Origin: Porpolomopsis calyptriformis
Taxonomy: Eukaryota; Basidiomycota; Agaricomycetes; Agaricales; Hygrophoraceae
Assembly (NCBI GenBank): GCA_951640195.1
Contig: OX621174.1
Coordinates: 1-64,000 of the forward strand
Direction of reading: 5' to 3'
Length of the DNA: 64,000 nt
A program made the position numbers and the translations under genes. Shown one piece after another: positions 1-37,464 of the stretch; position 1 is the first letter of the stretch, and each line of letters begins with the position of its first letter. The notes under the pieces were generated by a model. The model did no database searches and was not told the origin of the DNA. It worked only from the letters and a program-made list of their open reading frames with translations.

Positions 1-136
1 AACCCTAACCTAACCTAACCTAACCCTAACCTAACCTAACCCTAACCTAACCCTAACCTAACCTAACCCTAACCTAACCTAACCTAACCTAACCTAACCT
101 AACCTAACCCTAACCTAACCTAACCCTAACCTAACC
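1..136. repeat. Telomere repeat array (C-rich strand)
   Basis: The window opens with uninterrupted copies of CCTAA and CCCTAA, read 5' to 3', which is the expected orientation for the left end of a chromosome. On the G strand these are TTAGG and TTAGGG. The mixture of 5- and 6-nt units is irregular rather than strictly alternating. The array stops at about 136, where unique sequence begins. This anchors everything downstream as subtelomeric. Confidence 0.97.
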
Positions 137-2178: not shown

Positions 2179-5100
2179 TTACCGTGTCCTCCGCTCCTTT
2201 GAAATCCAGAGAAAGACGAGCATGATGTTGTTCCAAACACTACCTGGTTGTGGATATTGGACAAGCCAATGTGAATATTGTTCAAGATCCTCCGCCGCTT
2301 CCCGAGTGATGATCGGATAATCCCGGATATTAACCGTGCCCGGAGAAGTGTGAATCGCCCACGCAGCCGGTTTGAGTATGTCGTAATACGGGCAGTCCTG
2401 TACTCTTTCCTCAAAATTGTGCCAGCCACGTTTCTGTAGCAGAATAAACAACCGAAATCTAGAGAGCAATACATGCTCACCTGGGGGAGTCCACAAAACC
2501 AACAGATTCCCTTAGTATAGGTTATAGACTCCCTCCAATTACTATACCTGTTATCCTGATACGAACAAATATTGGCAGGACAATTGTCAAGGGAATGGTT
2601 CCATGACCCTGACCCTCGGGCCCAACATGCAGCACACTTTCCGCGAAGGAGGACAAATAACTCCTTTATCGAATCCCTTTTTTCTGCCTCATCTTGTACT
2701 CCCTGTGTATGCGTGGCTTGGTTAAGTGCCACACCCAACCCGACCGGACGTAGAGAATTCGTCCCTGAGGTAGACGTGGCCTGGGCCCTAACCCTCACAG
2801 GTGGTAGTTGCTTGTAAGGGTGAGGGGCATTCGATAACACCCCAGGAGCATGTCTAATACCTCCATCAGCACTTTATATTTTGCTCAACATAGCTACCCA
2901 CCTCTGTTGAGCATTCCCGGACACACCCGGTCCCGTACTTGGCATTGGTTGAAACCCATTTCGTCCAAAGCCCCCCGTACGCTTCGGTATTCCGGAATCT
3001 CTAGTAGCCGGAGCAGGGGGCTGACTTGGCAAGTCGAGCTAACCAAAGATCGCAGATTAAAAACTACTCATTTTCAAACAAGACCCACTCACCAACCGGG
3101 AAGAACTCCCCGGATTATGGCCAGAGTGGCTGCCAGATTCTAAAGTTGTTACAGGTCCGCTTGGGGGCTCAGAAGTCGTCGAGGATTGGAAAAATGGATT
3201 GGTAGGGAAATAGGTCGTCAAGGCCGGAGGGGTTTTAGTGATCGCCTGATGACAATTGTCGCAAGACTCTGCACCCGGTATCCCGATACACGTCTCCGCT
3301 GCACCATCAAAAAATTGGCTCAGTAGAATTCGTCTACAATTTTCGTTATCCTTCGCCCACGGAAGAAGACAGTCTCCCCCAAATTTGGCCATATCCCGTC
3401 CAGGCGGGGGAGACATCGGGTCACAAAATAACAACGCCCTCGCAGGTAACCCGTCCCGTCCTCCCCTACTTGCCTGTTGCGAAAAGTCCAGTAAGGAGTA
3501 AGGCAGACCTTCGAAAACAACATCCCGGATGCTCGGAATATCGATACCAACACTGAGGGATGTCGTCGCCACAATCGTAACATGTGTTCCGGTAACCCAT
3601 CGTGAAAATATATTCCCAGAATCTTCGATACCCGAATAGTAAGCTTCACATCCAATATACTTCGCCAATTCAGTCGCTCTGCTCCGGGATCGCACAAAAA
3701 CCAGAGCACGATCGGCGTTACGGTAGGAAACCTTTCGGGATTGTAATTCTTCCCGAATAGCCTCCGGAATTTGATCCTTGTGTAGCATCTTCACCCTATA
3801 CGAAATTTCGGGCCGGGCAGTTAGAGTGCGGATAATCCGACACGTGGTTAGGTTAAGCACGTCCATCAAGTCCTTTTGAAGCGAAACCGGTAATGTGCCA
3901 GTGAAGAGAATGAAGGGAACGTTGGCAGAGCGCAGCTCCCTTACTTGATTGAACACGTCCCGGTAGTCCTTGTCTTGTACAATCAAATGCGCTTCGTCCC
4001 AAACGATTCGCGTCAGCAAACCCAGGTTGACCAACTGTTTGCAATACCTTCCCGAACCATTCACCTCAGCCAATTCCGGATCACAACCAGGGTCACATAC
4101 CTTAAAAATTCCTCTTTGCTTGCATTCTCAATAGAGCATAACACAATCGACGACCGTGGTTCAGGGTTTCTGACCAATTCCCATTCCGAATACACCACTT
4201 GACACTCATTGCAACGCCGTCGGAAATCCCCATGCAGCGAAAGCAGTGGGAGAATAACAACCGTCACGAACCTAGGTTCATACATTCGGGCCTTGTATTC
4301 ACCATAAGCATACAACACACCTCAATCATCTCAAATAGACTTGCCTGAAACATAATCATAAATGTTTTCCCACCAGCGCAAGGAAGCACAGCTAGGATAT
4401 TGGCCTCTCGAGCCTGCATCAGCTCAACTAATTCCGCTTGTTCCGGATATTTGAAACATGCTTTACCATCCCCAAGAAACGTTCGTAGATCGTTTAATCG
4501 GGAAGGGTGAACCACAACCTGGGATCGCTGTCGAATTCCAGATGGGGAGTCGAGAATGGGCGGCGGAAAGTAATGAGCAGCAAGCTGGGCCATAATATTG
4601 GTTAGAGCCGCGGTCGTCTTCATCTCCATCTTTTCACATAATAAGAATGCCAACTTGTCCACATCGATTTGACCACCACCGCCACAGGCCAAGGTTTCCT
4701 CATCTTTCCCATCTACCACCATCAGCGGTGCATCCATAGCTGGAATCGGGTTATCTTGCCCGATATCTAAGATTTTGTGCCAGTCTCCGCTCGTCTTGAC
4801 ACACATCAAAACCCGGGATGGAGAAGCATTCGCCAGCATATCGTAGGTAAGCCCGTAATCCCGGTCAGCAGATTGACCAGGATGTCCACGTTGGACATCA
4901 TCATAATGCCTATCAGAAATTTTATAATCCATATAAAATAATATAAAATAAAAACCATACAATCTTTCCGTTGATAAATTTGGATCCCGGTGTCTATGAG
5001 AGAATGCGGACTGAACCTGGCGCCAAGAAGACACAGTGAGCCGGAACCCCAGATGTTGTTCCGTTAGCAACCCAATCAGGTCCGAGAAGTCTCCAGTAAC

Positions 5101-7816
5101 CATAGTCCGCGTCTGCATCGGACACAGATAGGTCGAATACCGCTGCGCATCTCCCTCACTGAATAGCGCTCGCATTAATTCCACCTCAACCGTCCGTAGA
5201 AGCAGCAAATGCTTCACCCATAACTCCCCAATGTACATAGGAGGCGCTCGTGGCGTAACTTTCTCCCTTTTGTGCCGTCGGTTGGTCTTCATATATCCTC
5301 CAACAAGCGTAAAGCATTTCTGCAAAATGTACACATTCCGGACAAACGATCCCGGAACATTCCGTATAGTGTGCGTCAGAATTTCCGTCATCCGGCCAGG
5401 GCTCCCATAACTGAAATGGGTCATCGCGATCAACAATCCCCGAGCCTTCTCGATCAGATCCAACAGATTCAGGCATTGAGCTGGATACCAGAAAACTTTA
5501 CCGTTATGGATGTAATGATATACGCCAGCAAAACGAGGATGCTCCAAGATGAGTTTCAAAAAGTTGTCCTTATCCTTCGCACACCGATTCCGCGGGTCGT
5601 CCAGGAATGAGTAGTACGGAGTCTTGGATCTCAGATCATCCACCAGGGTTTTCATATCAATATCCGGGTTTAGCTCCGCGAGTTCCCCCAAACCCCGGAA
5701 GATTTCCGTATCCACAATTTCCAGATAATCCCTGTGGAGAGCTCCAACCATACCCGTAACATCCGCAAGCCGTATCACGTTCCCATGGTAGCTAACCTCT
5801 CGCCCAAACGCATCTATAAAGTTCACCACTTGGTGACCTTCCTCTCCAGCCCGAAGAACAACCAACAGTTTGTTCACATTGTACATGAATGAAAGTGGCG
5901 TCTCGTGTTGGTCGGTGAGGTAGGGTTCCACTTCCTGATAGGCCACGGGGATCCGGACCCGACGTTGCTGCATCAAAAGGTGCATCTGGTAAAGCATGGT
6001 CGACCGAATACAGTAGATCAACGCGGCAATCAACTGCGTAATACTTCCAGCAGGAAGCCACCCCCCTCCTTCCACAATAGACATAAGAACCAGCGCCCGG
6101 TTCACTGGGCTGAAATATTTGTCCTCCGAGAATGTCGCTGGCTCATGGGCAAACAACGAGTAGCACAGGTTGTGCACATAACCCCTGATCGTGGTCTCTT
6201 TATCATCGCGTTCAATCGCTACCAAAACCTGCTCAACGTTACCTCTCTGACTCTCGTTGAGCGGGCAATCGTACTCCGAGTCCCATCCTCTCAGAGCTCT
6301 CGCGACAAAACACAATACCCGGGTAAGCGTCCCTCCATATTTTGTCACTGTTGGGGATGTAACAATGTTGAAGGTCTCTAGGCAGGGCGATGACCTGCAG
6401 CAGCCGAATTCGGTATCACAAGGATGGCTTTTTGGTCATAATAAAATACACATACGGGTTAATCTGGGCTATCATCTTGAGGATCCCGAATGCAGCATGA
6501 CACGGAATCAACCCTTGGACAAAATTTAGGTAGTCAACGACATGCTTGCCCAAGAGTTTCAGAACCGATTCCTCCTTTTGTGGTGGAGAAACAAATGACC
6601 TAAGTTCTCCCGACACATAACCCTCGACATGCAGTAGCCAGTGCTCCGCAGCTAGGAAATTCGACAGGTTTTCAAAGTGCGCCGGAACCGACATTCTCAG
6701 TTGGCTGGTATCCACAACAGGTCGGCTCGCAATAACCAGATCAAACGCATTCGCCACAGCCCGTTGTTTCCCTAACGATGGATCCACTCGGAAGAATCGC
6801 CTAAACGTTCCGGTGTAGAACGTTTGGGCATGGCCAACGTACGATCGCACAGGCTGTCCCTCAAACCCAGGGCAGTCCGAATCCCCACCCACGTGGTTTT
6901 TGAAGCTCGTTTCCAAACCATAGCCTCTTCCACAACGACCGCAAAAATAGTAGTTGGCATAGATCCGGAGTCCAAATATCGGACCAATGGCTTGGAGGGT
7001 GGGTGGATATCGATGTCGATGTTCTTTCTTGAGAGAAAACGTCTCGCACAACTTGATCCCAAGATTGTGAGGGATCGGGATAGATTTATAATGTTTCCGA
7101 AGATGCTTCACAATGAGATCCGGAAAAATAGAACGCGCGCAAGTAAGGCAGATGATAACACGGTAATCCGTGTTGACCACAATCCCAAACCTTTTCAAAT
7201 CAAACCGTGGATGCTCAGAGATGGTGGTAGCATCCGGGGAAAGAATATGATTTGCTGCCAGCTCTTCCGGGTCTTCCCGGTCTTCTGGGTCTTCCAATGT
7301 TTCCGGATTTTCCTGGGGTGGATCAGAATCATACATCGACTCAAGATCATCGCGGGGTGGGCCGGTCAGAGAATCCTGATGGCAAACAGGATTCTTCCTT
7401 GGTGTGGGGGAGATCGTCATTTGTGATAATGTCTCTGGTAGCGGGGAAGGGCCGATCACATTGAATGGGTAGACTGTGTCTACCGCTGTGGGGTTGGGGG
7501 GCAACAGAGAGGAAAGTTGAAGCACGGTATGGTTGACATCAATCGGCGCAGTGGCGTGGTCCTCTTCATCAAGGACAGCGAGGCATTTGTTAATGTGTTT
7601 CTGGTTATGAAAATATTGAGGACTGTTTATTTGAACGGATGTGATAATTACCGCCAGGCTGCCTGGGTCGAAGTACCCTTGGTTACATTTATCGCAGTGA
7701 AACTGTTGAGTAGACGTGTTCCGTGTAAAGGTTCGGTCACCGATCACAGCAGTCGCCTGGTGAACTTTGCGGATATGTCGCTTTGTGTTTTCAACTTTGC
7801 AAGATGGGCACAGCAT
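2179..7816 (-). CDS. Telomere-linked RecQ-type DEAH helicase (TLH1)
   Basis: Seven exons (7816-6456, 6394-4319, 4271-4101, 4047-3093, 3038-2902, 2853-2481, 2433-2179) join with GT-AG introns into 1,776 codons without a break. The N-terminus has Cys/His finger-like motifs (MLCPSCKVENTKRH, FHCDKCNQGYF) and a long helical middle. The helicase core follows: Walker A-like LPCAGGKT, ILPLLSL (motif Ia), IVWDEAHL (motif II), FILFTGTLP (III), LVFVRSRSRA (IV), VATTSLSVGIDIP (V) and QASRGGRDG (VI). The C-terminal domain is Cys-rich (GKCAACWA, CWFCGLPQ). The family is typical of fungal chromosome ends and is thought to act in telomere recombination or maintenance. Walker A carries CAGGKT rather than the usual TGGGKS. 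The stop codon abuts a ~20-nt A tract. Confidence 0.88.
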
Positions 7817-8499: not shown

Positions 8500-9935
8500 T
8501 ATATTTCTCTCCCTCCCCCCCAGTGGTGGTGATGGTGGTGATGGTGGTGGTGGTTTAGGGACAACCCACTCGAAATGGGTGAGCCCTAATGCTCACCCGT
8601 CTCGCACTCAGGAGACCCGCGTGTGGAGGTGAAGGGGTGTGGGGGGGCGAGGAGAGGTAGTGGTGGGGTACCACAAGTCACCGTGAACGAACAGGCATCT
8701 CTACCTGTTCGTTTACTGCCCAGGACAAACCTCCAGTTCCTCGCGGTCGTGCATAGGGCTGGGGCGAGGGCGTGGGGTGTCTGGACATGGTGGGACAGCA
8801 GGGGTGGTTGTGGGTGACCGTGGTCGGGCACAACGAGTCACCGCCAATGAAAGGGCATCTCCGCCCGTTCGTTTCATGTCCCAACCCTACACATGACCAA
8901 GACGACCCAGAGAGTCGTCTGGGGCACAAAAAGAACTGGCATCTCCGCCCATCCATTTCGTGCCTGAGACAAACCTCTGGATCCTCACGGTCGTGCATAG
9001 GGCAGGGGTGAGGGCGTGGGGGGTCAGGGCATGGGGGGTCAGGATGCGGCGGGACAGCGAGGGGTAGTGGTGGTGGTGCTGGTCAGGCACCACAAGGTAT
9101 CACGAGTCACCGCCAATGAAAGGGCATCTCTGCCCATTCGTTTCGTGCGCCTGGGCTCGTCTCGGTCGTACCTAGGGTGGGGACGACATCGTGGGGGGTC
9201 GGGATGCGGTTGAGCAGCCAGGGCAAATGGTGGGGGAGAGCAAGGGCACACCCCCAGAAAGGGCACGTCTGCCCATTCTGGGGGTGCTCCCTCCACCGCT
9301 GGTCTGTCGGCCGTACTACCCAGGAGGTCGTCTCAGTCCTTCAGAGGGCAGAGTTGGGGTCGTGGGTGGTCGGGGCGGGCATGGTGAAAGGTGAGTTACT
9401 ACCTTCCCCCGCCGCTCGACCCTGCCCCGACCCCCCGCGAGCACAACCCCGCCCTCCGAACGACCGAGACGACCTCCTGGGTCGTACAGTTCATGAAACG
9501 AACAGGCAGTAATGCCCGTTTGTGGTGCTTGGCTGTGCCCATCCACCAGCATCCACTACCGGTGGTGGTGGTCAGGCACAGCGAGGTACCACGAATGAAC
9601 AGGCGCTACCGCCCGTTCGTTTCCTGCACTGTACAACCCAGTGGGTCGTCTCGGTCCTTCAGAGGGAGGGGATGGGGTTGTGGGGGGTCGGGGAGGGGTG
9701 GGGTGGTGAGAGGTGGTGGTTGGTATGTAAGCGTGAATGGGTGGCTGTGCCCACTTGTAGGAAGTTTACGGGCAGTCCCGGCTTTGATACTGAACTCACC
9801 GGAACTGCCTCGGGCAGTCCCTACTAAATGAACGGGCGACCTCGGGCGACCTCGGGCAACCCCTACTAAACGAACGGGCGACCCCAGGTGGCCCCTACTA
9901 AACGGACGGGCGGTCCCCGGCGGTCCGTAAGTAAT
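8500..9935. repeat. GC-rich subtelomeric repeat region with GGGC/GCCC hairpins
   Basis: There is no convincing gene here. About six related hairpins recur, with arms such as AACGAACAGG...CCTGTTCGTT (8686-8713), ATGAAAGGGC...GCCC...TTTCAT (8847-8877; also about 9116-9147), CAGAAAGGGCA...TGCCCATTCTG (9255-9280), 9496-9523 and 9592-9623. Loops are commonly CATCTCT or CATCTCC. Between them lie G-rich tracts and repeated GGTCGTCTC(A/G)GTC motifs. The 3' end (9825-9925) has short repeats of GAACGGGCGACC and CCCCTACTAAA. The strand bias of G suggests G-quadruplex potential, for example 9661-9706. Confidence 0.65.
9313..9487. repeat. Long inverted repeat, ~70-bp arms
   Basis: The sequence from about 9313 (GTACTACCCAGGAGGTCGTC) is the imperfect reverse complement of the sequence ending at about 9487 (GACGACCTCCTGGGTCGTAC). 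Similarity continues inward through the GTC-TTC-GAGGG segment to the GGTCGGGGCGGGC tract, leaving a loop of roughly 30 nt. It lies inside the GC-rich repeat region. Confidence 0.6.
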
Positions 9936-18839: not shown

Positions 18840-20830
18840 TTGTGGTACCCCAATCAGTCTGCCCATGGGGATGTGGTTATTCTGGGATGTTATCACACTA
18901 ATGCTATTGATTGAACATAACATGCTGATGGTTAGAGAGCTCGGTGAGAAGTTGAAGGTATAACCTCTGATACCTCTTGCATGCTAATTACGGTACCCCA
19001 ATTATTCCGCACATGAGGATTGGACTACTCCTGATGTTTGTAGCACCAATGCTATTGATTGAACATAAAATCCTGATGCTTAGAGGGCTCTCTGATAAGT
19101 TGAAGGTATACCCTCCCATACCTGTTGTATACTTATTGCGGCACCCTAGTTAATCCACACGTGATGATTGAACTATTCCTAACCTTTGTAATACTCATGC
19201 TATTGATTGAACATAAAATCCTGATACTCGGAGAGCTCTGTGATAAGTTGAAGGTATATCATCTGATACTTCTTACATACTATACCCCAATCATTCCACA
19301 CATGAGGATTAGACTACTCCTGACCTTTGTAACACTAATGCTGTTGATTTAACATAAAATCCCGATGATTAGAGAGCTCTCTGATAAGTTAAAGGTATAC
19401 CACCCCATGATATCTTATATACTTATTGCGGCACCCTAGTCAATCCATACACGAGGATTAGACTATTCCCAATGTTTATAACACTGATGCTATTGATTGA
19501 ACATGAAATCCTGATGCTCAGAGAGCTCTGTGATAACTTGAAGGTATACCCCCCCCTACCTCCTGTATACTTCTTGCGGCACCCCAGTCTATCTACACAT
19601 GATGATTGGACTATTCCCAATGTTTGTAACACAGGTGCTATTGATTGAACATGAAATCCTGATGCTCAGAGAGCTCTGTGATAAGTTAGAGATATACCCC
19701 CCTATACCCCTTATATAGCTTATTGCAGTGCCTCATTCTGTCCATATATTGTCATTCCGAGCATCTGTAACACTGGTGCTATTGATTGAACATGAAATTG
19801 TGATATTTAAAGAGGTCTGTGATAAGTTGGAGATATACTCCCCCATACCCCTTATATAGCTTATTGCAGTACCTCATTCTGACCATATATTGTTATTCCG
19901 AGCATCTATGACACTGGTGCTATTGATTGAACATGAAATTGTGATGTTTAAAGAGGTCTGTGATAAGTTGGAGATATACTCCCTCATACCCTTTATATAC
20001 CTTATTGGAGTGCCTTATTCTACCCATATATTGTTATTCCGAGCATCTATGACACTAGTGCTATTGATTGAACATGAAATTATGATGTTTAAAGATGTCT
20101 GTAATAAGTTGGAGATATACCCCCCCATACCCCTTATATAACTGATTGCGGTACCCCAAATGGTCTATAACTTAGGATTTTTGTATTCCCCACCTCTATG
20201 ACACTGGGGCTATTGATTGAATATAAAACCCAGGTTTTTAAAGACCTCTGTAATAAGTTGGAGATATACCCCCCCATACCCCTTATATGGCTTATTGCAG
20301 TACCTTATTCTGCCTATACATCAGGATTTTGTTATTCCGAGCCTCTATGACACTACTGCTATCGATTGAACATGAAATCCTGATTTTTAAAGACCTCTGT
20401 GATAAGTTGGAGATATACCCCCCCATACCCCTTATATAGCTTATTGCGGTACCCCAAATGGTCTATAAATCAGGATTTTTGTATTCCCAGTATCTGTGAC
20501 ACTAGTGCTATCGATTGAACATAAAATCCTGATTTTTAAAGAGCTCTGTGATAAGTTGGAGATATACCCCCCCATACCCCTTATATCACTGATTGCGGTA
20601 CCCCAAATGGTCCATAAATCGGGATTTTTGTATTCCCCACCTCTATGACACTGGGGCTATCGATTGAATATGAAACCCCGATTTTTAGAGCAGTCTATAG
20701 CTACTTATACTTATGCCTCCTCCTAAAACCTTACTATCTTCCACCACGACATACCAAATGCTCTAAAAATCGGAATTTTCTGTGGGCCCACCATTAGTTT
20801 ACTGTGCCTATCGAATGGACATGAAATTGT
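18840..20830. repeat. Tandem array, ~14 units of 141-151 bp
   Basis: The anchor ATTGATTGAAC (later ATCGATTGAAC) occurs at 18906, 19054, 19202, 19343, 19492, 19640, 19781, 19922, 20063, 20212, 20361, 20510, 20659 and 20810. Spacings are 141 or 148-151 (mean about 146.5). Each unit has a C-rich tract followed by CCTTATATAGC, then arms such as AAATCAGGATTTTT and AAAATCCTGATTTTT about 55 nt apart. No convincing ORF spans it. The last unit or two lie inside the direct repeat that recurs at 31899. Confidence 0.85.
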
Positions 20831-21877: not shown

Positions 21878-24800
21878 TTATTGTCTTTGTAGCCATAGCC
21901 AAAGTACTAGCTCCAAGCCTCTGTTAAAGCAGTTAGCCTCATCCTCTTTAGCAGCCCATGTAGCAAAATCCTGCAAAGTTGTAAAAGGTGAAAGCCCTCT
22001 CCAAATACTATATACTGAATTCCAAGTTGGTTCATCGTGTCTAATATACCATAAAATCCCTACCACAAAGTCCTCCATTGGGCATTGCATCCTTTCTCCA
22101 GTCTTGAAAATAGGGTGACAGGTAGGTTGGTATTCTCCTTGTGGAAGACTACATCTGTAGCAATATTCGAATGCTCGTAACTTGATACGCTTCTTGAAAT
22201 TGATCCAGCCAATAGCATGGGGAACAGATTCATCCTCTGGGTCTTTGCAGGAGACAAAAAACTTGTGATCTGGAGTTTTTGAGGTGAAGCGTCCTTTCCA
22301 AGCCCAACAAACAACACATTTCCCAAAGAGCTGATGAGCCATTCGATTAATATCTGCTGCTTTAGTTGCCTTGGTAGCCTTTTTCCTCATATAAACAGCT
22401 TGGTCAAGCTGAATAGGCATAGAAGGTTTAGCAGATAGAGGAGGCTGATGAGGTTGTTGTGGAATGTGATACTGTGTATGTGTGGGGAGAGAACTTGTAG
22501 AATTTGCTGGAGGAATAATGGATGAAGTAGAGTGGTTTTCAAATTGAGAGATATCGACCTGCAAAAAAAGGTCGTCATCCAAGTTACCCATATCAAAGTC
22601 TTCATCCTGGGTAACCATGGGTGGAAGTGCTAGAGTACTAGAAGTGATAGGAGGTAGAAGAGTAGTGAGGCCAGAGGTGGGTGGTGGTGGTGGACGTTGG
22701 AATGGGTATCCTTGTTCAAAGAGAATGGATGGAATAGCTTTGAGAATATCTGTATGAGGATCACAGATATCACATTTTTCTGCACCTGGTAAATTGGCAC
22801 AAGTGACTCCAGTACCATCCATCAGGGATGAAAGCCCAAGACGTCGACAGTCAACTGTGTTCCACATCCATTGGTTTCCTTCATGAACACCACTCAAGTC
22901 TTCTTCACCATAAGCGTGTTGACTGATGAATTGATCTAGGCTATTGTCAACCAAAAAGATCATAGCAGGCTTGCCATTTCGTCCAGCACGCCCACTTCCT
23001 TGGAAGAGATTCATAGCACCATAAGGAAGGCCAACAAAGATAACAGCCCCCACATCTTGACAGTCCACTCCATGGATAAGTCCAGTGGTGGAAACAATCC
23101 ACTGGTTAAGGCCTGCATACCATCTTTCCTCATTAGCTAGACGATCAGAGGGTTGCAAATTGGAGTGAGAGGTGCACTTGTCAAAGGAAGCTCCAATTCT
23201 GTTGGTAGCAGGAACGGAGGTACAGAAAATGATGCCCCTTCGAGTTGAACCAAGAAAGGAGGTGGTGATTAATTTAGCCAAGTCAATAGTGAAACGATTC
23301 AGATTAGTTTCACCATAGTTCACCAGTTTAACGTGGTAGCGTAAATTGGGTTGGTGAGTAGGCTCCCTAATGATGGTGGTGGAATCAGGAAGGGCAGTTG
23401 CAAGGAAGAATTGGTGCATGAGACGAGGAGGAAGTGAAGCTGAAAGGTAAATTTTCTGGACAGCAAATCCAGCAAAAGTAGAGATTCTTGTAAAGTGCTG
23501 ACGATAGTCAGGACAGGTTAAAACTTGGTGAGCTTCATCAACCACCAGGCGAACAATAGACTTCTCATGCTCTCTCCAAAAGCTGCATACAAGGTATTTT
23601 ATTAGAAAATTATTACAACTGAATAATTAAATACTTACCTTTTAAACTTGATATGAGTTGCAGTTTCCAATGCTACAAACAACACCCTAGCTGATTGATG
23701 GCCAATAGTATTGGTTGTCCACTGAGCACAATCAATCCTAGCTTCTTTGGCTTTGCGTAGCATATCCCTCAAGAGCATCTTGTTGGGTATAAGAACAATA
23801 GTTATAAAGTTCTCTTCCACTAGAGATGGCAATAGAAAGACCAGGCTTTTGCCACCACCAGTAGGTAAAATCCCAATAAAGTTACGTTGCCGTTCAATTG
23901 CCAGTTCAACCATTTTCTGCTGTCCAGGTGATTTGAACTGGACATTGGGTATCTTTGGAAAGAAGTAGTGAAGAAGTTGATGGAGGGAATCTGGTGAAGA
24001 AGTTGAAGAGGCTGGGGTACTGTTTTCTTTAGATATAGTGGTTAACAGATTGGATGAAGGTGTGAAGCTTGAGGTAGGAAGTAGTGGAAGGGCAATAGAG
24101 AGACCAGGATTTGGGAGGAGATCATCAGAGGCATACAATTCCTCTAAGTCATCAGCCTGAGGTGTGACTGGTTCTTGAGGCTGAACAGGAGGATGAAATA
24201 CTGATCTAGAAGGAGAGGGAAAGGTTGGTTGAGGAGGAGGAAAGATTGGCTGAGCAGAAGATGGGTGACTGTGAAGAACTTCAGCTATCCCAGCTGCCAC
24301 ACTCTGTTGGATTTGAGCAGTAAGTTCAACCCTCATTTGAGCAAGAGCAGTTGACATAGTAGCAGTCAAATGCTCAATGATCTTCTCTGTGTCCAAAGTA
24401 ATAGGACCAGAAGGTGCTGAGTAATCAAGAGGGTTGGAAGAGTGAGAAGTGTGAAGGGATTGGTGAAGTTTTCGTCTTTGTTGAATAGGCAGCAAGGGAG
24501 AGTGACCAGGGTAAAATTGAACCAGCTTCCACCAGGCTTCTGAAACATGGCCAAATCGCAAAAGGGTGTCACTAGACATGGAGGGAAGATGTCCCTCTTC
24601 AGTGGCATACATCCTAACCTGCATTTGGTGACTATGATTGGCCTGCTCTGCTAAAGCATCTTCTTTATCTTGGTCAATTTCATATTCTGAACCTAAATAG
24701 GTACGAGCAATGGCGATGATTAGTTGGCGGTAAGGTCTGAGGCTGAGTCCAACACCACAGTGAAGTTGGGTGAGAGTCTGAAGGGAATGGCTGAAGTGTT

Positions 24801-27564
24801 CTTCCTTGGTTCGATGACCCATATCGACCCAGAAGTATTCATCATAAAGGTGATAGGCTTCTTCCCCCCATAGAATCCAGGCAAACTCTTTCTCCACTGG
24901 CCTAATCACTAGCAGGTAGAACTGGAGAAGTTTGGCAAAAAAGGGATTAAGTTTGGTTGGTACAAAAACCTCCTTTTGGATCAGGTTTTCATACTTGACA
25001 CGACGGGTAACAAACCAAGTATCCCCATTACTACCATAGAAGTAGTTTCTTGGCCTGGTGGAGTTCTTTATCTTGAGATCCATGAACTCCGCACCTCTAG
25101 AGGGTTGGCCACAAGTAGTAAATCCAAGGATACACAGCTTCTTGTTAATCTCTGAGGCTGCTTGCATAATCTTCAGCATTGCTCCAAGATTGTATTGGAT
25201 TTCTCCACTACTATCCAGGCTAGCAAGCTTTAGATTTGGGTCAGCCAAAAGGATCTGAACAAGAGGGTGACTTTTTTCAACAAAGTCTCCATTGTTAAGC
25301 CAGCTGTATTTGCGAGTCTCGATCGTCCAATCGTCAGGTACTTGAGTAGGGATATTGATAGGAATGTCTTCTCCATGACAGAAGAGTTTGATGTCCTCTT
25401 TAACATCATTATACAAGGTATGCAATCCAGAAATCCAGGTGGGAACATCCAAAGTAAATTCCTTGTAGGAGATTTTTGTACCATCATCAGAGATACGAGT
25501 GAGAGGTGGAGAGGATTGAGACATGGCAAGGGATGAAGCAAAGCGTTGGTAATCCACTATAGCATTAAAAGGGGAGATGATTCCAACTTTGAGATTCTTC
25601 AAAGCATAGAATTCAACAGCCCTTATAAATTTACAAAGTTACCTTTAGCTTGGATTTAAAAATACACAAGAAGAAGTGAACTTACTGGTATGGATCATTT
25701 TGAAACTTATCCTTGTTCTTTAATGCTTCATAAAGCGTAGTTGCTCTACAAGCATACTCCAGCTTGGCAAAGATCTGAGTAACATCTTTGGCTTGCTTGA
25801 AATTGCCATCTTCTTTAAGACAGAAAATGGCAAGGAAGCATTCGATAACTTCATCCCATTTGCTGTATTCACAGTTGTTGGAATAATCGCGACCAGAGAG
25901 AAAGGGTGAAATGAAGTTGTGGAAAGCTAAAATGGGATTTCCAGCACCACCATCTAGGATAGTGAGAAGGGTGAATCCAGCTTGTTTGTCCCTCTGAGTA
26001 AGAGGAAATTTGTAACCAGAGGGGTGATCTTGTAAAGAAAGAAGGATAGCATAAGCCAGAGTATGAAGAAGTTGACTATATGCATGAAGGGTTTGATCAT
26101 CAGAGTGAGCACGCCAATGTGGTCCCTTTTGGCTAGAGCTAATAGAAAGAAATGAAATTAATTGTCTATTAAAAAATAATATAAATACTTACCGAGGGCA
26201 TTCCATCAGTAAACACTTTACACCAATAGCAGATTTCTCTGCCATTCCTCTAATCTCCTTCATATAATTAAACACAATATCCCTAAGACTGTTAAGCCCT
26301 TTGGATCCACTAGAACTAGGGACTTGAACTAGTAAGCGAAGAGTTTTGATACTTGGCTGAGTTTTGATATAATCAGCCAAGTGAAGGTGCCAGCCAGTAA
26401 CCTGAAGTAAAGGGGGGATTTCATGGACATGGATAGGGGGGTTGATTAAGGTAGACTTGAACTTGGGGACTTGTTTCTGTAGGTAGACTGCAAATAGATC
26501 CTGAGGTGAAGATTCAGCCTCTAGTGGTAATACTTCAAACCAGCGCTGAGGAGAAGGGTTGAAGAAAGTCTGGATAGGAGCAAGATGGAAAGCAGAGGTA
26601 GCAGAAGATGGGTGGGCTTTGTGAGCTTGTGACCAATGCTTTTTGAATGTGCTAAGTTTGGGTGCACAATAGTTGCATTGATCACAGCAATAGCCATTAG
26701 ACACTATAGCCAAGCCTTCCACTGGTAGTCCTCTTGGTTCAGGGATAGACACATCAGTTGTTGTAATAACACCTAGCTCTGTAATAGCCTGGTTAAACTG
26801 ATCCTGGTGCTTTAGATTTATCTTGATACTGTGAACCTTGAGATGGTTAAGTATAGCACTAGGTGGCCATGCTATTTGACAAGAGAGGCAGTGGAGAGTT
26901 CTGTGAACAGGATGGACCTTGACTGAGAAAGTAGCAAGAAAGTCATGGTGAGTAGGAAGAGATGTTGTAAGGGGAATAGAAGTATCCACTATAAATTTTA
27001 TTAGATAGATAGAAAGTTAATTAATTATAATACAACTTACTAGAAGGCAAAGAATGAGACATTGAAGCTTGTTTTTGAAGTATGGAAGAGCTAAGCCTAA
27101 GCTTTTTGGAGGATTGCCTAGGGAACTCAGTAGCAACACGTTTCAAAGGGCTTTGAAGGCTTGTGTTAGAGACTGATAGAGAAGTAGAGTCAATCTCTTT
27201 CCATTTAACTTCAGTAGCAAAATGAGTGCTTTTGAGATGATTGCAAAATACTTGGATATTTGCAAACTCCTCTAAGCAATCTTTTTCTATGCAGCTAAGA
27301 ACTGCAGTTGAAGTGGATCGAGAAACTTGAATAGTTTTACCTAGTAGTTATTAGAAACTATATATAAAGATTTGACTAGCCAAAAAACATACTGTCAAGA
27401 GTAACTTCATAAGTCCTTTGATGAAAAATGGCAGAATGAACTATTAAGTTCTTTTTGTTTCCACCAGGAATAACATTATTGCATTGAGAACAGTAAGGCC
27501 TAAAAATATATATATTAGTATTTTTATTATTTATAATAAGTCAAGTTAGAATGATAACTTACAT
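21878..27564 (-). CDS. Second telomere-linked RecQ-type DEAH helicase (TLH2)
   Basis: Exons run from about 27564 to 21878. The initiating ATG appears to be split by an intron (AT at 27564-27563, G at 27499), giving MPYCSQCNNVIPGG, which aligns with the MLCPSC start of TLH1. Later exons join in frame at about 26990, 26190/26140, 25690/25620 and 23635/23590. Finger-like Cys/His motifs (CCDQCNYCAPK) precede the core: GILPTGGGKSLVF (Walker A), LVVDEAHQVL (II), IYLSASLPP (III), GIIFCTS (IV), VSTTGLIHGVDCQDV (V) and QGSGRAGRNG (VI). The Cys-rich end (GKCVVCWAW, CYRCSLPQG) matches TLH1. It looks intact, with canonical motifs, and is visibly richer in A/T than TLH1. It lies within the direct-repeat-bounded module. 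Confidence 0.87.
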
Positions 27565-29179: not shown

Positions 29180-31690
29180 TTACTATACCATATCCTTTAT
29201 AGAGACTAGTGGCTCTGCAGTGGTAACTAGTGGGTCTATCCACTTGAGGTTAATTCCATTGAATTCCTACAGTCAAACAACCCCGAATTGACCCCTAGTA
29301 AGAGTCGGTTACTAGGGGGGATGTTGAGCAATCATGGTTGCTTATTATAAGAGGGAGGGAGACTAGTGGCTCTACAGTGGCAACCAGTGACCCAATCCAC
29401 TTGGGGTTGGTTCCATTGAATTCCTACAGCAGAATAACCCCGAATTGGCCCCCAGTAAGAGTCAGTTACTAGGGGAGATGTTGAGCAATAGTGGTTAGCT
29501 ATTATAAAGGGCAGGAAGACTAGTGGCTCTCCAGTGGCAACCAGTCACACAATCAACTTTGGATCAGTTTCATTATATTCCTACAGTAAAACCACCCTGA
29601 ATTGACCCCCAGTAAGAGTCAGTTACTAGGGAGGATGTTGAGCAATAGTGGTTAGCTATTATAAGGGTGAGGGAGACTAGTGGCTCTACAATGGCAACCG
29701 GTGACCCAATCAACTTGGGATTGATTCCATTGAGTTCCTACAGCAGAATAACCCTGAATTGACCCCCAGTAAGAGTCAGTTACTAGGGGGGATGTTGAGC
29801 AATCATAGTTGCCTATTATAAGGGGGAGGGAGACTAGTGGCTCTACAGTGGCAACCAGTGACCCAATCAACTTGAAATTGGTTCCATTGAATTCCTACAG
29901 CGGAATAACCCTGAATTGGCCCCCAGTAAGAGTCAGTTACAAGGGGGGATGTTAAGTAATGTAATTACCTATTATAAGGGGGGGAGGAAGACTAGTGGCT
30001 CTATAGTGGCAACCAGTGACCCAATCAACTTGGGATTAATTCCATTGAATTCCTACAGCGGAATAACCCTGAATTGACCCCCAGTAAGAGTCAGTTACTA
30101 GGGGGGATGTTGAGCAATGTAATTACCTATTATAAGAGAGGAGGAAGACTAGTGGCTCTACAGTGGCAACCAGTCACCCAATCAACTTGGAATTGATTCC
30201 ATTGAATTCCTACAGCAGAATAACCCCGAATTGGCCCCCAGTAAGAGTCAGTTACTAGGGGGGATGATGAGTAATGTAATTACCTATTATAAGGGGGGGG
30301 AGGAAGACTAGTGGCTCTACAGTGCCAACGAGTCACCCAATCCTCTTGGGGTTGGTTCCATTGAATTCCTACAGCGGGATAACCCTGAATTGACCCCCAG
30401 TAAGAGTCAGTTACTAGGGGGGATGTTGAGCAATAGTGATTAGCTATTATAAGGAGGAGGAAGACTAGTGGCTCTACAGTGGCAACCAGTTGCCCAATCC
30501 ACTTGGAATTGATTCCATTGAATTCCTACAGCAGAATAACCCCGAATTGGCCCCCAGTAAGAGTCAGTTACTAGGGGGGATGTTGAGTAATGTAATTACC
30601 TATTATAAGGGGGGGAGGAAGACTAGTGGCTCTATAGTGGCAACCAGTCACCCAATCAACTTGGGATTGATTCCATTGAGTTCCTACAGCGGATTAACCC
30701 TAAATTGACCCCCAGTAAGAGTCAGTTACTAGGGGGGATGTTGAGCAATGTAATTACCTATTTTAAGGGGGAAGGAAGACTAGTGGCTCTACAGTGGCGA
30801 CCAGTCACCCAATCAACTTGGGATTGGTTCCATTGAATTCCTACAGCGGAATAACCCTGAATTGACCCCCAGTAAGAGTCAGTTACAAGGGGGGATGTTG
30901 AGCAATGTAATTACCTATTTTAAGGGGGAAAGAAGACTAGTGGCTCTACAGTGGCGACCAGTCACCCAATCAACTTGGGATTGATTCCATTGAATTTCTA
31001 CAGCGGAATAACCCTGAATTGACCCCCAGTAAGAGTCAGTTACTAGGGGGGATGTTGAGCAATGTAATTACCTATTTTAAGGGGGAAGGAAGACTAGTGG
31101 CTCTATAGTGGCAACCAGTGACCCAATCAACTTGGGATTGATTCCATTGAATTCCTACAGCAGAATAACCCTGAATTGACCCCCAGTAAGAGTCAGTTAC
31201 TAGGGGGGATGTTGAGCAATGTAATTACCTATTATAAGAGGGGAGGAAGACTAGTGGCTCTACAGTGGCAACCAGTTGCCCAATCCACTTGGGATCGATT
31301 CCATTGGATTCCTACAGCAGCTTAACCCCGAATTGGCCCCCAGTAAGAGTCAGTTACTAGGGGGGATGATGAGCAATAGTGGCTGCCTCTTATAAGGGGG
31401 TAAGAGGAGACTAGTGGCTCTGCAGTGGTAACCAGTGGCTCTATCCACTTGGGGTCAATTCCATTGAATTCCTACAGTTGATTAACCCCGAATTGACCCC
31501 CGGTAAGAGTCAGTTACTAGGGGGGGATGTTGAGCAATCACAGTTGCCTATTGCAAAGGGTAGGGTAAGACTAGTGGCTCTGCAGCAGCAACCAGTGGTC
31601 CTATCCACTCGGGGTTAATTCCATTGAATTCCTGCACCCAAATAACCCCGAATTGACCCCCAGTAAGAGTCAGTTGCAAGGGGGGTAAAG
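29180..31690. repeat. Tandem array, 16 units of ~157 bp
   Basis: ACTAGTGGCTCT recurs at 29205, 29362, 29519, 29676, 29833, 29991, 30148, 30307, 30464, 30622, 30779, 30936, 31093, 31250, 31410 and 31570, with spacings of 157-160. Units are very similar. Each has TTCCATTGAATTCCTACAG, CAGTAAGAGTCAGTTACTAG and then GGGGGGATGTTGAGCAAT. The last is a purine run followed by TGTTG, which resembles a polypurine tract beside the start of an LTR, so an origin from a retroelement end is possible. I see no gene. The 31691-31898 stretch that follows is not repetitive within the window and holds nothing I recognise. Confidence 0.85.
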
Positions 31691-32370: not shown

Positions 32371-32438
32371 AAGCAAATCACTTATGAGAGCTGGTTGGTG
32401 GGAGTGTCAAAGGGGATGATTGAGGAGGAAGTTGCTGT

Positions 32439-35400
32439 TCAGCACCTAATAAGGAGAATAATGTTAGAATACATGTATAAAGTATTTGCGCGAAACAAGC
32501 ATGCTCGTTTCACGCATAATATATGTTCTTGCTGTTGCTAATTGTAGAGACCATATATGAATGATGAGTGCGTGAAACGAGCATGCTCGTTTCGCGCACT
32601 TATTTGGTACACAGCTCACCTTCCATCGATTCATGGCACACATTTGTCCATGGCCTCTGCAATTGGCAACAGCAATTACATGCGCGAAACGAGCATGCTC
32701 GTTTCGCGCACATTTAACTGACAACTCACCGGTATTGATGTCCTTCTCAGCATCCTCATTAGTCTCCCTTCTGACCTCCTTGTCAGCCGAACCTGGCGTA
32801 GGGGTTATGTCGATTCCAGACACAGCTTCCATTAGGTCTACTGGCTTACCCCTACTCTTTGCCTTGGTCTTCTGCTTCGTCTTGGTGCTGGACACATCTC
32901 CCACTTCCCTTGGTTCTACTGTCTTACCCTTTCCCTTCGCCTTGGGCTTCTGCATTGTCTTGGTGTTCACACCAGGCAGATCCGTTGGTTCAACGGCCTT
33001 ACTCTTTCCCTTCGCCTTCGCCTTGGTCTTCTTCTGCCTCTTCTCACCCTCCTCCTCTGTATCTGTCTCTTGGGCAGTCATCTCCATGAGCTCGTCCTAA
33101 ATGAAATCAGTAGATATACAGTATCATACATGAGCTTGCCACTTACCTCATCATCGTCAGTGTGGTCATCATCTTCACTCTGATTCGCTCGCGCCATCTG
33201 AGGCCGGATATTGAACGATTCGGGAGGAGCTCACAGACGGTGGGCCTGGTGGTTGGCTGGGTATGGGTCATCATCTCAACCGGGATTGGGGAACTGTTCG
33301 AACTGCTCATGGACAGCCCAGTTAATGGTGAGCGCATTGACCAGATTCATGATTGCTCTGTAAACCCTCGGGGCTAAGATCTGAGGCTGGTATGGGTCCA
33401 TTGTCGCGAAGCGCAGCGATTCAATTTTCGTGACAATCGCGGTGATGGCTTTTTTATCTGCACTCCTACGTTGCCGATCATCAATAGACTTGATCATGTG
33501 AGCCACGTCAATCGTGATGGGGTTTGCAATGTCCAAATCTTCGATCCCATCCGGGAACCGCCATTCTCTTACCGACTCCGTGATAACTTTACCGCTCCTT
33601 GTCAGCACTTGCTTCTCCTTCGACATTCGACTGAGTAAATGTTGGATCGAGTTACGGAGCAGTAGGGCCGCAGGACAATTTTCGAGTAGATCGCGACGGT
33701 AATGGGCCACATAGGCTTCCTCCAGGATGGCTGATTGTATAACAGGCTTCAAATCCCGAGTTGGGTTCTTCGTGTTTTTGATATCCCAACTGGTCCTTGG
33801 GAGAAACTTGTTTGCAGTCACGAGCGTCGGAGTCTTCTTCTTCCAATATGAATCCAGCGCTTTGAACGCAGTTTTGTACTCCTCGGCAGGGTTCCTGACG
33901 TGATCCAAAAACCATTGTGGTCTCTCCGTCTCTTCCTCGTCAACAAACAATCCTTCTAACCACTGCTTAGTCTTCTTGTTTGGCCGCATGAAATCTTGGT
34001 CGGACTCTTGTATCACTTGATCTAATGCCAAGATAATGCCACGCTTGGTGAACAGGAGCATTGCGAGCTAGATATAGTGTAATATGAGTATAATTATTGA
34101 ACACCAAATTTAACCACACGTACCTGGAAGGCAACATCAACTGGATTGTCGAAGGTCTCGGTGTCACTCCTGATGCCTGCCAACACAAGTGATGAGTAAT
34201 CTGCTGTCGCGAGTGCATTCCTTATCGAGAGTTGGTAATCCACTAATGGCTCTATCCATCTACAGACCTAAGCACAATAGGTGAGCATAATTATCGAAAA
34301 CATGTATTATCGTGCGCGAAACGAGCATACTCGTTTCGCACATTTTCACTTACTTCCTTGAGCCCTTCCTCCATCAGCGCAAACAACTCTGCCAAGCAAG
34401 CCACAGGTGTTTTTGATAACAGCGGTAGCGGGTGATATTCAACCCGCGTCTTCCCAAGCACCCACCTCAACTTGTGAAGCAAGTTGTCCTGGATAATCTT
34501 CCCGTCCCCTTCATACGCCTCATTCAAAGGAATCAACTTGAAAATTCCACCCACTGCCTTCGTGTATGGCTGCAGAAACGGCCACATCCATGGCGTTGGC
34601 ATCCCCAATGTCTTTCTCGCTCTTTCTCCATCCTCCGTTTCCAGGCTGTAAATGTCGTCGAAACATTTGTCCAATCGGTCCAGCAAATCGGATGTCAGCA
34701 ATGTGCGGTCGCATGCCACACCCTTACCGATCAAGGTTTTCGTCCGTGATTGGCATTCCCTCAAAAAAGAGTCGAGCATTTCTTCCTCGTCTTCACTAAT
34801 GTCCGAGTTCTTCATGAATGATACCATAGTCTCAACCTGGGCCATATGCTCCTTGTACTGGGAAGCGGTGAATGCAAGTGGACGCGGTTTAAACATCCCA
34901 TTGAGTTGATCTGACATATGTAAGACCACCTCTGAAATGATCTAAAGTGTTGCAAGTGTCAGTCAAGAAATGCTAATTATCAATCGAAAATTGCGCTAAA
35001 CGAGCATGCTCGTTTCGTGCACTTACCCCACCAGCAACATTCAATATATTCTTTTGGATCCACATTGTTTGTGTCATCCGATGGAACATGAAATGTCGTC
35101 CATAAAACACTAAGGTCTTGAGTAGAGAGAATGAGTCGTCATTCGACAACACCTGTCCCAGTCGTGTGTCACTACGATGTGCTTCCTGACGGATATTCTC
35201 TAATAGTCTTTCGTCCCCTGTAGCGTCGATCATCTTTTTGACATAGATGATAAGTTTTTCTCCATCAGTTTCTGCATACTTGAACATCTTTTTGTTGCTG
35301 GACAGCTCATACGCCGCTTCATTATCGTCTCGTGTCAATTGTCCTATTGATAAAGCTCATTAGCGTTCATCTCCATAGTATGAAAATATTGCGCCGAACG

Positions 35401-36349
35401 AGTATACTCGTTCGGCGCATTATAGACTGGCATGTCAAACATGATAAGCTTGCGCCAAACGAGTACACTCGTTTGGCGCATTATAAAATGCAATGTTAAC
35501 CAAGCTTGCGCCAAACGAGCATGCTCGTTTGGCGCACCATATATTCATCTGAAAGTCACTTACCTTCATCATATATTACGACACCCCACCACCCTAACTC
35601 CTGCAGTGCTTCCTCTGCTCCCTTTACAACCTCTTGCTGGTCCAACATAGCCTCGGTCTCGACCTGATTCCCTTCTGGCTTTCTCATTTTCTCCAACTTC
35701 GCTTTCGATTTCTCCAGTCTCACCTGCCTCTCCTCCACAAGCCTCATCAACGCAGCATACCTGTGTTGCCCACTTGCCATAACATACTCGGGATACATTT
35801 GTTGGCCCTCCTCGGTTAGTTGAAGTTGCGGCATGTCTCCGCCAAGTGTCGCATCCTTCGTATATGAGTCCAGTTGCAATATACTTGCACTCGGCACTAA
35901 AAGGGGGAGTAGTGCTTCCCCTTTGTACCACTGCACGCCATTGATCTTCATCTCCATGCACAACTTGCTTACTTGCATTGAATCCGTCGGTCTTAGGTTG
36001 TACTTGCCAAAGTGAAGCTTGACGTTCTGATCCGTGAGCTTAATTTTAGCAAACCCAATCGTAGCTTTGCTGATCGTCTCAAACCGATGCTTCGCCTGTT
36101 GAATCGCTATACTCGTCTCGTCTTTCCCTACCATATCCTATACTTGGTTAGCATCCAGTGTCTCTCTCTCATTCATTCAGTATTACTCACCTCGTCTTCC
36201 TTGCCTTCCCCCTCAAGCTCATTGACTTCTTGCCGAGGATCCATGCTTGAACTAGACGGCTCTAGATCAATTCGGGCGCTCACGTCTTCGGGGTTATTGG
36301 CTATTACAGCCTTAGGTGTCCTGGTAGGCTGGGCTTGCTTTGAGGGCAT
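32439..36349 (-). CDS. ParB/sulfiredoxin-like domain protein (1,050 aa) with palindrome-bearing introns
   Basis: Ten exons (36349-36191, 36137-35564, 35343-35027, 34941-34354, 34267-34124, 34067-33281, 33229-33147, 33096-32730, 32654-32620, 32537-32439) join with GT-AG introns and consistent phases to 1,051 codons. Residues of about 75-240 read like a ParB-type N-terminal domain: GKYNLRPTDSMQVSKLCMEM, then a PLLV strand, then the box II-like YVMASGQHRYAALMR and GWWGVVIYD. The centre is helical and unrecognised. The C-terminus is acidic (DDDHTDDDEDE) and then repeats KAKGK motifs. Bacterial ParB proteins bind CTP and clamp on palindromic sites. Whether this one binds nucleotide or DNA is unknown. 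The last exon itself contains a palindrome copy, coding CVKRACLFRA. The gene looks intact. Confidence 0.6.
32487..32516. repeat. 30-bp palindrome copy in the last coding exon
   Basis: TGCGCGAAACAAGCA is followed by the near reverse complement TGCTCGTTTCACGCA. It lies within the modelled final exon of the ParB-like gene. An acceptor-like TTCTCCTTATTAG lies just downstream on the minus strand but no GT donor precedes the palindrome, so this may be a former intron that can no longer be removed. Confidence 0.75.
32569..32598. repeat. 30-bp palindrome in intron 9 of the ParB-like gene
   Basis: TGCGTGAAACGAGCA is followed by TGCTCGTTTCGCGCA; outer A-G and C-T bases extend the pairing to 32567-32600. 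It begins 20 nt inside the intron (32619-32538, 82 nt). Confidence 0.9.
32681..32710. repeat. Perfect 30-bp palindrome in intron 8
   Basis: TGCGCGAAACGAGCA is followed by its exact reverse complement. It starts 19 nt from the donor of the intron 32729-32655 (75 nt). This is the consensus form of the family. Confidence 0.92.
34313..34342. repeat. 30-bp palindrome in intron 4
   Basis: TGCGCGAAACGAGCA is followed by TACTCGTTTCGCACA, a palindrome with a few mismatches. It starts 11 nt from the donor of the intron 34353-34268 (86 nt). Confidence 0.9.
34992..35021. repeat. 30-bp palindrome in intron 3, touching the 5' splice site
   Basis: TGCGCTAAACGAGCA is followed by TGCTCGTTTCGTGCA. On the minus strand the palindrome begins 5 nt after the exon boundary (donor GTAAGT at 35026-35021), so its first base is the last base of the donor hexamer. 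The intron is 85 nt (35026-34942). Confidence 0.9.
35390..35536. repeat. Three palindromes in tandem in intron 2
   Basis: Copies at 35390-35419 (arm TGCGCCGAACGAGTA, perfect), 35451-35480 (arm TGCGCCAAACGAGTA, central mismatch) and 35507-35536 (arm TGCGCCAAACGAGCA, perfect) lie 61 and 56 bp apart in one 220-nt intron (35563-35344). The spacers share TTATA-ATG-AAGCT, which indicates duplication of a ~58-bp unit. Arm changes are mirrored on the other side. Confidence 0.93.
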
Positions 36350-36540
36350 TTTGACTGCAGGGTTTGTAGACGATACGTTCGAGTTGCAGCGGGCGGTCGA
36401 AAATAGTTAAGCCGAACTAACCCCACCTGTTTATATATAGCAGCTTTCGGCGATTGGCGGATGACGAATCCAAACAATAAACAAGGATGATAGTTTATTC
36501 CAAATATAGTCATCACGTGCCCACCTTCACATCAGTATGG

Positions 36541-37182
36541 TGCGCGAAACGAGCATACTCGTTTCGCGCGTGTTATAAATTAATACAATTAATTATTATG
36601 CGACAAGTATGCTCCTTTCGGACATGTTATTTTATTATTATTACCATCTGTATTTTGCGCGAAACGAGCATGCTTGTTTCGCGCGTGTTATGAATTAATA
36701 CAATTAATTATGATGCGTGAAACAAGCATGCTTCTTTTGGGCATGTTATTTTATTATTATTACCATCTTTATTTTGCGCGAAACGAGCATGCTCGTTTCG
36801 CGCATGGTATTTTATTATTATTATTCAAGTTATTATTGCTAATATTATTATTGACTAACTTGATCATTATTTTTCGCAAAACGAGCATGCTATTACTATT
36901 ATGTATTATGTTATTGATTATTATTATTATTATTATTACTATTAATTATTATTATGCGCAGAACGAGCATACTCGTTTTGCGCATGTTATTTATTATTAT
37001 TATTACTATTAGTTATTATGTGCGAAACAAGCATGCTCCTTTCGGGCATCTTATTTTACAATTATTATTACAATTATGCATCATTATACACAAAACGAGT
37101 ATACTCGTTTTGCGCATGTTATTTATTTATTATTTATTAGTATTAATTATTATGCACAGAATGAGCATGCTCCTTTCGCGCA
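36541..37182. repeat. Array of ten palindromes upstream of the ParB-like gene
   Basis: Copies start at 36541, 36599 (degenerate), 36656, 36714, 36775 (perfect), 36875 (left half only), 36955, 37021, 37087 and 37153. Typical spacing is 57-61 bp, then 66 bp. Spacers are AT-rich (TTATTATTATTA types). Spacers one and three are nearly identical, as are two and four, so a 116-bp dimer has been duplicated. The array begins 192 bp upstream of the start codon at 36349. I see no gene from 36350 to about 37440. Confidence 0.92.
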
Positions 37183-37464
37183 TGTTAATTTATTATTAGT
37201 ATTATTGTTGTTCAAGTTAATATTGTTAGTATTATTTACTAACTTGATCAATTGAGCTTAGTATTATTTACACTCTCTCCAACAAATCTGCTATACTTGC
37301 GCTACAAATATACACTTCTGGCACACAAGCTATCTTACAAAGCTGGAAATTCACAGCCCTAACCCTAACTGATTTGCAAAATATGTCTAACAATTCAGAC
37401 TTGTCAAATTGACAAATTTTGATTTTTGTCCAGTTTGGTCCCTCATATGGCATGACATTAATTT

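Follow-up and report, generated by a model that had tools for sequence, protein, structure and literature searches.

What does a 30-bp palindrome do in intron after intron of one gene? The question is raised by the first 64 kb (hereafter the window) of contig OX621174.1 (C12) in the 33.5-Mb genome of the basidiomycete Porpolomopsis calyptriformis, in which a member of a multicopy ParB/sulfiredoxin-like gene family lies on the minus strand. Such palindromes are arrayed in the promoter and in the introns of the gene, occur in the same introns of diverged paralogues, differ in spelling between branches of the family and are shared with Gypsy retrotransposons. Judging from sequence comparison, there is a slightly better than even chance (about 0.55) that they are DNA sites of a dimeric protein, for which the ParB/sulfiredoxin-like product of the gene itself is the most likely candidate.

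Palindromes in the introns and the promoter

The gene (32446-36349, minus strand) was modeled by splicing and paralogue alignment between the start codon at 36349-36347 and the last intron, whose end is approximate. Its body contains eight 30-bp palindromes with 0-2 of 15 pairs mismatched, distributed over introns 2, 3, 4, 8 and 9 (seven of them as originally described), with three in intron 2 and the first palindrome of each intron starting 27, 5, 11, 19 and 21 nucleotides (nt) past the donor, respectively. Intron 2 (35344-35563; 220 nt) harbors those at 35507-35536, 35451-35480 and 35390-35419 (0, 1 and 0 mismatches), the 85-nt intron 3 (34942-35026) the one at 34992-35021 and the 86-nt intron 4 (34268-34353) the one at 34313-34342, both with 2 mismatches, while the fully symmetric copy at 32681-32710 belongs to intron 8 (32657-32729; 73 nt, taking the first AG as the acceptor). 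The last two are found at 32569-32598 (1 mismatch) in intron 9 and at 32487-32516 (2 mismatches). The latter copy, previously assigned to the last exon, is most likely intronic, because it lies upstream of an acceptor suggested, by eye, by the paralogue L041. If intron 9 has the resulting long form (32446-32619; 174 nt, two palindromes), all eight gene-body palindromes are intronic.

The palindromes also occur outside introns: eight further copies (0-4 of 15 pairs mismatched), absent from the original description, form a promoter array at 36541-37182. They are located at 36541-36570, 36656-36685, 36714-36743, 36775-36804, 36955-36984, 37019-37048, 37087-37116 and 37153-37182, with 2, 2, 4, 0, 2, 4, 2 and 4 mismatches, and are accompanied by a partial copy within 36863-36891. 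The 5.0-kb element which includes both gene and array (32373-37394) has 17 palindromes at up to 4 mismatches, namely 16 of one type and an unrelated exonic one at 34903-34932; 60 dinucleotide shuffles gave 0.43 on average and 3 at most. The core pattern, allowing up to 2 mismatches, matched the window 15 times versus 0.15 expected in shuffles, and no palindromes at up to 4 mismatches were present in the window beyond the element's right end.

Exons were placed by splicing at 36349-36191, 36137-35564, 35343-35027, 34941-34354, 34267-34124, 34067-33147 and 33096-32730, followed by a short 3' part. They disregard a former "intron 6" (33230-33280, minus strand), a 51-nt in-frame stretch with GTTGAG as the donor and GTGAG as the acceptor, whose homologue is protein-coding in the paralogues L041 and L042. 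According to splicing and comparison with these two genes, it is probably coding sequence with two stop codons. Because of these two in-frame TGA codons, the window copy may be a pseudogene or may end near residue 856. Nor was the joined frame of 1,051 codons reproduced, a stop appearing at 1,014 with the first AG as the intron-8 acceptor, and both counts depend on the doubtful intron 6.

Conservation between paralogues and spelling of the arms

A protein search revealed relatives on C11 (L041, L048), C9 (L042), C12 (L044, L062), C10 (L046, L047), C13 (L049), C6 (L050, L066) and C8 (L065), and a near-identical truncated copy (L043) is present on C9. The exon-2 identity to the window gene is 61% in L041, 52% in L042 and 21-25% in L046, L047, L048, L049 and L050; in L049, exon 2 is free of stop codons. 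Counting the window gene and L043, family-type palindromes occur in 10 of the 13 loci examined and were not found in L044, L062 and L065. They are intronic in the window gene and in five diverged paralogues (L042, L041, L046, L048 and L049) and restricted to upstream arrays in L047, L050 and L066. Intron 2 contains three in the window gene, L042 and L049 and one in L041, with none seen in L046; intron 3 contains one in the window gene and L042, a poor copy (7 of 15 pairs mismatched) in L041 and none in L049; intron 4 contains one in the window gene and L042, two in L041, four in L046, four in L048 and, amid motif repeats, a poor copy in L049. Intron 5 has no palindrome in either the window gene or L041. 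The tandem spacing is 78-79 nt in L046, L048 and L064 and 54 nt in intron 2 of L042. A different palindrome, with GGAGTTGTTCAACTCC at its center, is situated at matching upstream places of L046 and L048.

Because some of the paralogous introns, such as intron 3 of L049, have no palindrome, the family has gained or lost copies. The idea that palindromes were inserted into ready-made introns of about 50 nt conflicts with their presence in the homologous introns of diverged paralogues. Moreover, the distances from the donor in the window gene, L042 and L041 are 27/24/24, 5/5/5, 11/14/11 and 19/21/21 nt, in the order of introns 2, 3, 4 and 8 of the window gene, and the intron sequence outside the palindromes showed a shuffled-level similarity (within 2 standard deviations) in 11 of 12 comparisons among these three genes. 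Since the offsets agree while the rest of the intron sequence is mostly no more similar than shuffled sequence, the intronic palindromes are probably older than the split of the three genes and have been kept since.

This conservation does not extend to the spelling of the arms, whose pentamer is GAAAC, CAAAC or CGAAC in the introns of the window gene, CAAAC in L042 (with CATCC and CAAGC in intron 8), CATCC or CATCT in L041, ATTGG and others in L049, and mostly ACATC or ACATT in L046 and L048. The spelling thus differs between branches of the family, apart from an overlap of the window gene with L042. Such arms could represent a modular half-site consisting of an outer TGCGC, the variable pentamer and a core, which would be GAG for the type found in the window.

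Across 25 homologous comparisons, 53 pairs had changed in both arms versus 33.4 expected, and 111 in one arm only. Paired changes exceeded the expectation in introns (22 versus 11.7) and in the long terminal repeats (LTRs) of the Gypsy elements described below (24 versus 13.9), with none of 5000 permutations reaching either value. This set extends 15 hand-picked comparisons (39 paired changes versus 22.5 expected) by additional LTR sites, the other intron-2 copies and sites 1 and 3 of the Gypsy pol linker; it leaves aside intron 9 and any second copy in intron 4 or 8. From the paired changes above expectation, it therefore seems that a symmetric DNA site has been under selection in introns and LTRs. 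Intronic arms also fit their own partner better than the arms of sister copies of the same gene (the observed value was reached in 0 of 5000 shuffles).

Palindromes of this length would form stems in RNA, and hairpins controlling splicing or RNA processing from a position close to the 5' splice site, one of the functions originally proposed, would be in line with the start of the window copies 5-27 nt past the donors and with a palindrome adjoining the intron-3 donor in three paralogues. Among the 480 pairs of 32 intronic copies, 384 are Watson-Crick and the mismatches comprise 31 G-U, 41 A-C and 24 others. The lack of a G-U excess over A-C on the sense strand (p = 0.90) argues against RNA hairpins, which are weakened further by the similar copies of the promoter array and the LTRs and by the intron 4 of L046 and L048, holding four copies at a 78-nt spacing. 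Overall, a hairpin function is improbable.

Gypsy retrotransposons, genomic distribution and the chromosome end

A genome search with the pattern TGCGCNNAACGAGYRYRCTCGTTNNGCGCA at up to 3 mismatches gave 154 places (forward count), the best 50 of which were listed and classified by coordinates, and the reversed pattern gave none. The 50 places are divided between copies of the palindrome element (26; in the window and on C9, C4, C5, C3, C6 and C8) and a single 580-bp Gypsy LTR family (24), and none falls in an intron of an unrelated gene. An enrichment just after 5' splice sites, raised originally as a genome-wide question, was found for the ParB/sulfiredoxin-like family itself but for no other genes among these places. 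Near-identical copies in the introns of many unrelated genes, as in introner elements, and dispersed single insertions into unrelated loci, as expected of a mobile palindrome, were likewise lacking in the best 50.

The 580-bp LTR begins with TGTCAGGACC and ends with TTTCTGACA. The family has at least 42 matching pieces at no fewer than about 40 places; of the 11 copies shown, L060, L009 and L059 have 5-base flanks that match by eye and the others do not. Palindromes are present on both sides of its TATAAAA. In the Gypsy element L055 (reverse transcriptase, RNase H, integrase and gag), in-frame palindromes of the pol linker (2674-2940) encode repeated ten-residue units, e.g. APNEHTRFAH. The element L068, 91% identical to L055, has APSEHPRMAH at two of the pol sites; its linker (1000-1420) is, by eye, more diverged than the flanks and has lost one palindrome site. 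The LTR relatives L069 and L070 are 82-86% identical to the 580-bp family and carry CATCC in place of its GAAAC; related LTRs differ at the palindrome sites far more than in the surrounding sequence.

A mobile palindrome tolerated only in introns, another of the original proposals, is not supported, in view of intronic copies common to diverged paralogues, of similar copies in LTRs, in promoters and within the coding linker of a Gypsy element, and of the absence of unrelated genes from the 50 listed places (of 154). A broader variant, mobile palindromic mini-elements that insert widely and survive wherever tolerated (introns, promoters, linkers), would account for the multiple copies dispersed via Gypsy LTRs, for the in-frame ten-residue units of L055 and for the paralogous introns without a copy. 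Nevertheless, none of the 50 places is outside the element copies and the 580-bp LTR, positions are common to diverged paralogues and the arm changes are paired in introns and LTRs, so such mini-elements have little probability.

The other spellings had distributions of their own. The L046/L048 pattern occurs at 11 places in the genome, seven in these two genes, two in arrays upstream of them (L064, L067) and two on C9 with no gene match in the 1.6 kb fetched, and the L049 pattern at a single one. The 22 places of the L041/L042 pattern include 14 spelled as the L055 LTR site, two in L041 and L042, two in the L068 pol linker, two in L069 and L070, one about 3 kb from L041 and one in L071, where a ParB-like relic is close by. 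It is conceivable, albeit unlikely, that a host transcription or silencing factor controls both the ParB/sulfiredoxin-like genes and Gypsy through these sites, the gene's own product not being their reader. The occurrence of palindromes in both the gene family and unrelated Gypsy LTRs, the TATA box flanked by LTR copies and the partly shared spelling of the window gene and L042 agree with such a factor. On the other hand, the L046/L048 pattern and that of L049 hardly occur outside their own genes, and a single factor alone would not explain several spellings differing between branches.

The element has a fixed right end (37361-37394, minus strand) common to the copies on C3, C4, C5, C6, C8 and C9; all six share the terminus at 37394, with different flanks and a variable left truncation. 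The truncated side adjoins the fixed end of another subtelomeric repeat on C4, C6, C8 and in the window. Tandem arrays of 149-bp and 157-bp units are located at 18895-20605 and 29203-31685, the former being part of a repeat whose fixed end (...GGGTCCCTGA) adjoins the truncated element at several places. The flank of the right end (37392-37447) recurs on C9 at 1685 kb (L071, 28-83) near the small ParB-like relic, and this place could help define an insertion site. The segment 38738-39458, with a histidine-kinase ATPase domain, is 97.8% identical to 3781-4501 of L049, both being near a ParB/sulfiredoxin-like gene. A repeat region at 8500-9700 harbors other 30-bp palindromes of imperfect symmetry, for example at 8685-8714 and 9593-9622, and sequence resembling this region is also present on C4 and C9.

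Mixed CCCTAA and CCTAA telomere repeats occupy window positions 1-136. Because of these terminal repeats and the fungal-type fatty acid synthase domains in the window, we take it to be a fungal chromosome end. Pieces similar to Helicase_C, DEAD and OrsD at 3060-3866, 6416-7816 and 21881-25524 may derive from telomere-linked helicase genes.

The putative reader of the sites and comparable systems

The candidate reader is the product of the gene itself, in which exon 2 (35564-36137, minus strand) tentatively encodes a ParB/sulfiredoxin-like domain. Its GQHR motif and the predicted order of strands and helices are compatible with the ParB/sulfiredoxin fold. When the alignment was compared with the PDB at E ≤ 1, nothing but sulfiredoxin was matched (by two entries with weak E values of 0.77 and 0.88), and sulfiredoxins recur among the structure matches of middling Z obtained with the exon-2 model. 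The predicted structure reached a pLDDT (predicted local distance difference test) of 36.6 alone and of 56.5 with a seven-row alignment. Foldseek gave no match to the model at E ≤ 0.001, ParB was not among the 50 VIA structure matches listed, and the joined protein matched nothing in the protein database at E ≤ 0.001 among 7988 scored candidates. No ParB family was recovered with Pfam for the window protein (E ≤ 1; only DUF2209, below its cut-off) or for eight members (E ≤ 10), nor with NCBIfam for seven members (E ≤ 1). None of the curated families searched passed its cut-off, and the predicted fold serves as a lead that falls short of proof.

The palindromes arrayed in the promoter and introns of the multicopy gene would be read by a protein that binds DNA sequence-specifically as a symmetric dimer, and the introns would host them because extra bases are tolerated there within the gene body. 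If the gene's own product is this reader, it might mark its own locus for autoregulation or protection from silencing, and Gypsy elements with similar LTR pentamers would either exploit this protein or be among its targets. Of the three options offered originally, an intragenic protein-binding site has the best support.

Several results weigh against sites of a dimeric protein kept since before the split of the paralogues and spelled branch by branch. The window to the left of the element (1-32372) has eight palindromes of another spelling versus 2.6 in shuffles (maximum 7 of 15). The spelling of the window gene overlaps with that of L042, which is itself mixed. Intron 3 without its palindrome has a window-L042 similarity of 0.75 versus 0.64 for shuffled sequence (standard deviation 0.08), and the window-L041 similarity of intron 8 (0.85) is above the shuffled 0.73 (standard deviation 0.05). 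The promoter mismatches comprise 26 G-U, 18 A-C and 29 others, and 26 of 5000 within-gene arm shuffles reached the value observed in promoters. Finally, the Gypsy pol linker showed no excess of paired changes (7 versus 7.9 expected, with 3894 of 5000 permutations reaching it).

A further step would be an address code, whereby each branch of the ParB/sulfiredoxin-fold protein family recognizes a palindrome of its own by the pentamer and maintains arrays of it in promoter and introns, and the Gypsy LTRs, and less surely the pol linker, carry the code and switch it in step. This extension is doubtful, its estimate having been lowered because of the missing paired-change excess in the pol linker. 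If true, it would be a eukaryotic loading system resembling parS or an independent counterpart of VANC anti-silencing in plants. Several naturally occurring spellings within one genome make the proposed pairing of protein and site testable.

No description of such self-matched fungal palindromes was recognized in the literature searched, mostly at the title and abstract level. The bacterial parS site is 16 bp long, and the ParB-parS system is similar in that its palindromic sites cluster around the gene for a protein of the ParB fold; in contrast, the fungal protein has no Pfam ParB match and the fungal spelling varies within the family. Rickettsia palindromic elements are in frame within coding sequences, as are the palindromes of the L055 pol linker, whereas the fungal copies are mostly in introns, promoters and LTRs, with a spelling that tracks the branches of the gene family. 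Introner elements, or invasive intronic elements (the subject of PMC7789003), are repeated sequences tied to introns, and this link is the common trait; the fungal palindromes, among the places listed, belong to one gene family and its Gypsy partners, occur also outside introns and do not make the intron. The symmetrical stwintrons of Hypoxylaceae also combine fungal introns with internal symmetry, but in the part of the account considered (PMC8469720) the symmetry is the intron's own structure, and here it is that of a site found in promoters and LTRs as well.

The nearest analogue appears to be the VANC/VANDAL system of Arabidopsis, which the fungal system may resemble in its working without being claimed as one. 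VANC21 is reported to localize to noncoding parts of its own transposon (introns, intergenic and terminal regions), and VANC motifs form tandem-repeat arrays and differ between related VANDAL elements (PMC5735166; PMC10398659). In layout, both systems have an element-encoded protein family, motifs in introns and other noncoding parts of its own element, and tandem motif arrays that evolve together and differ between related members (with the window/L042 overlap here). The fungal sites, in contrast, are 30-bp palindromes with a candidate ParB/sulfiredoxin-like protein and are shared with Gypsy. The comparison suggests that self-targeting by DNA-binding proteins tied to mobile elements may have arisen a second time, outside plants, and offers a possible reason for conserved noncoding sites in the introns of such genes.

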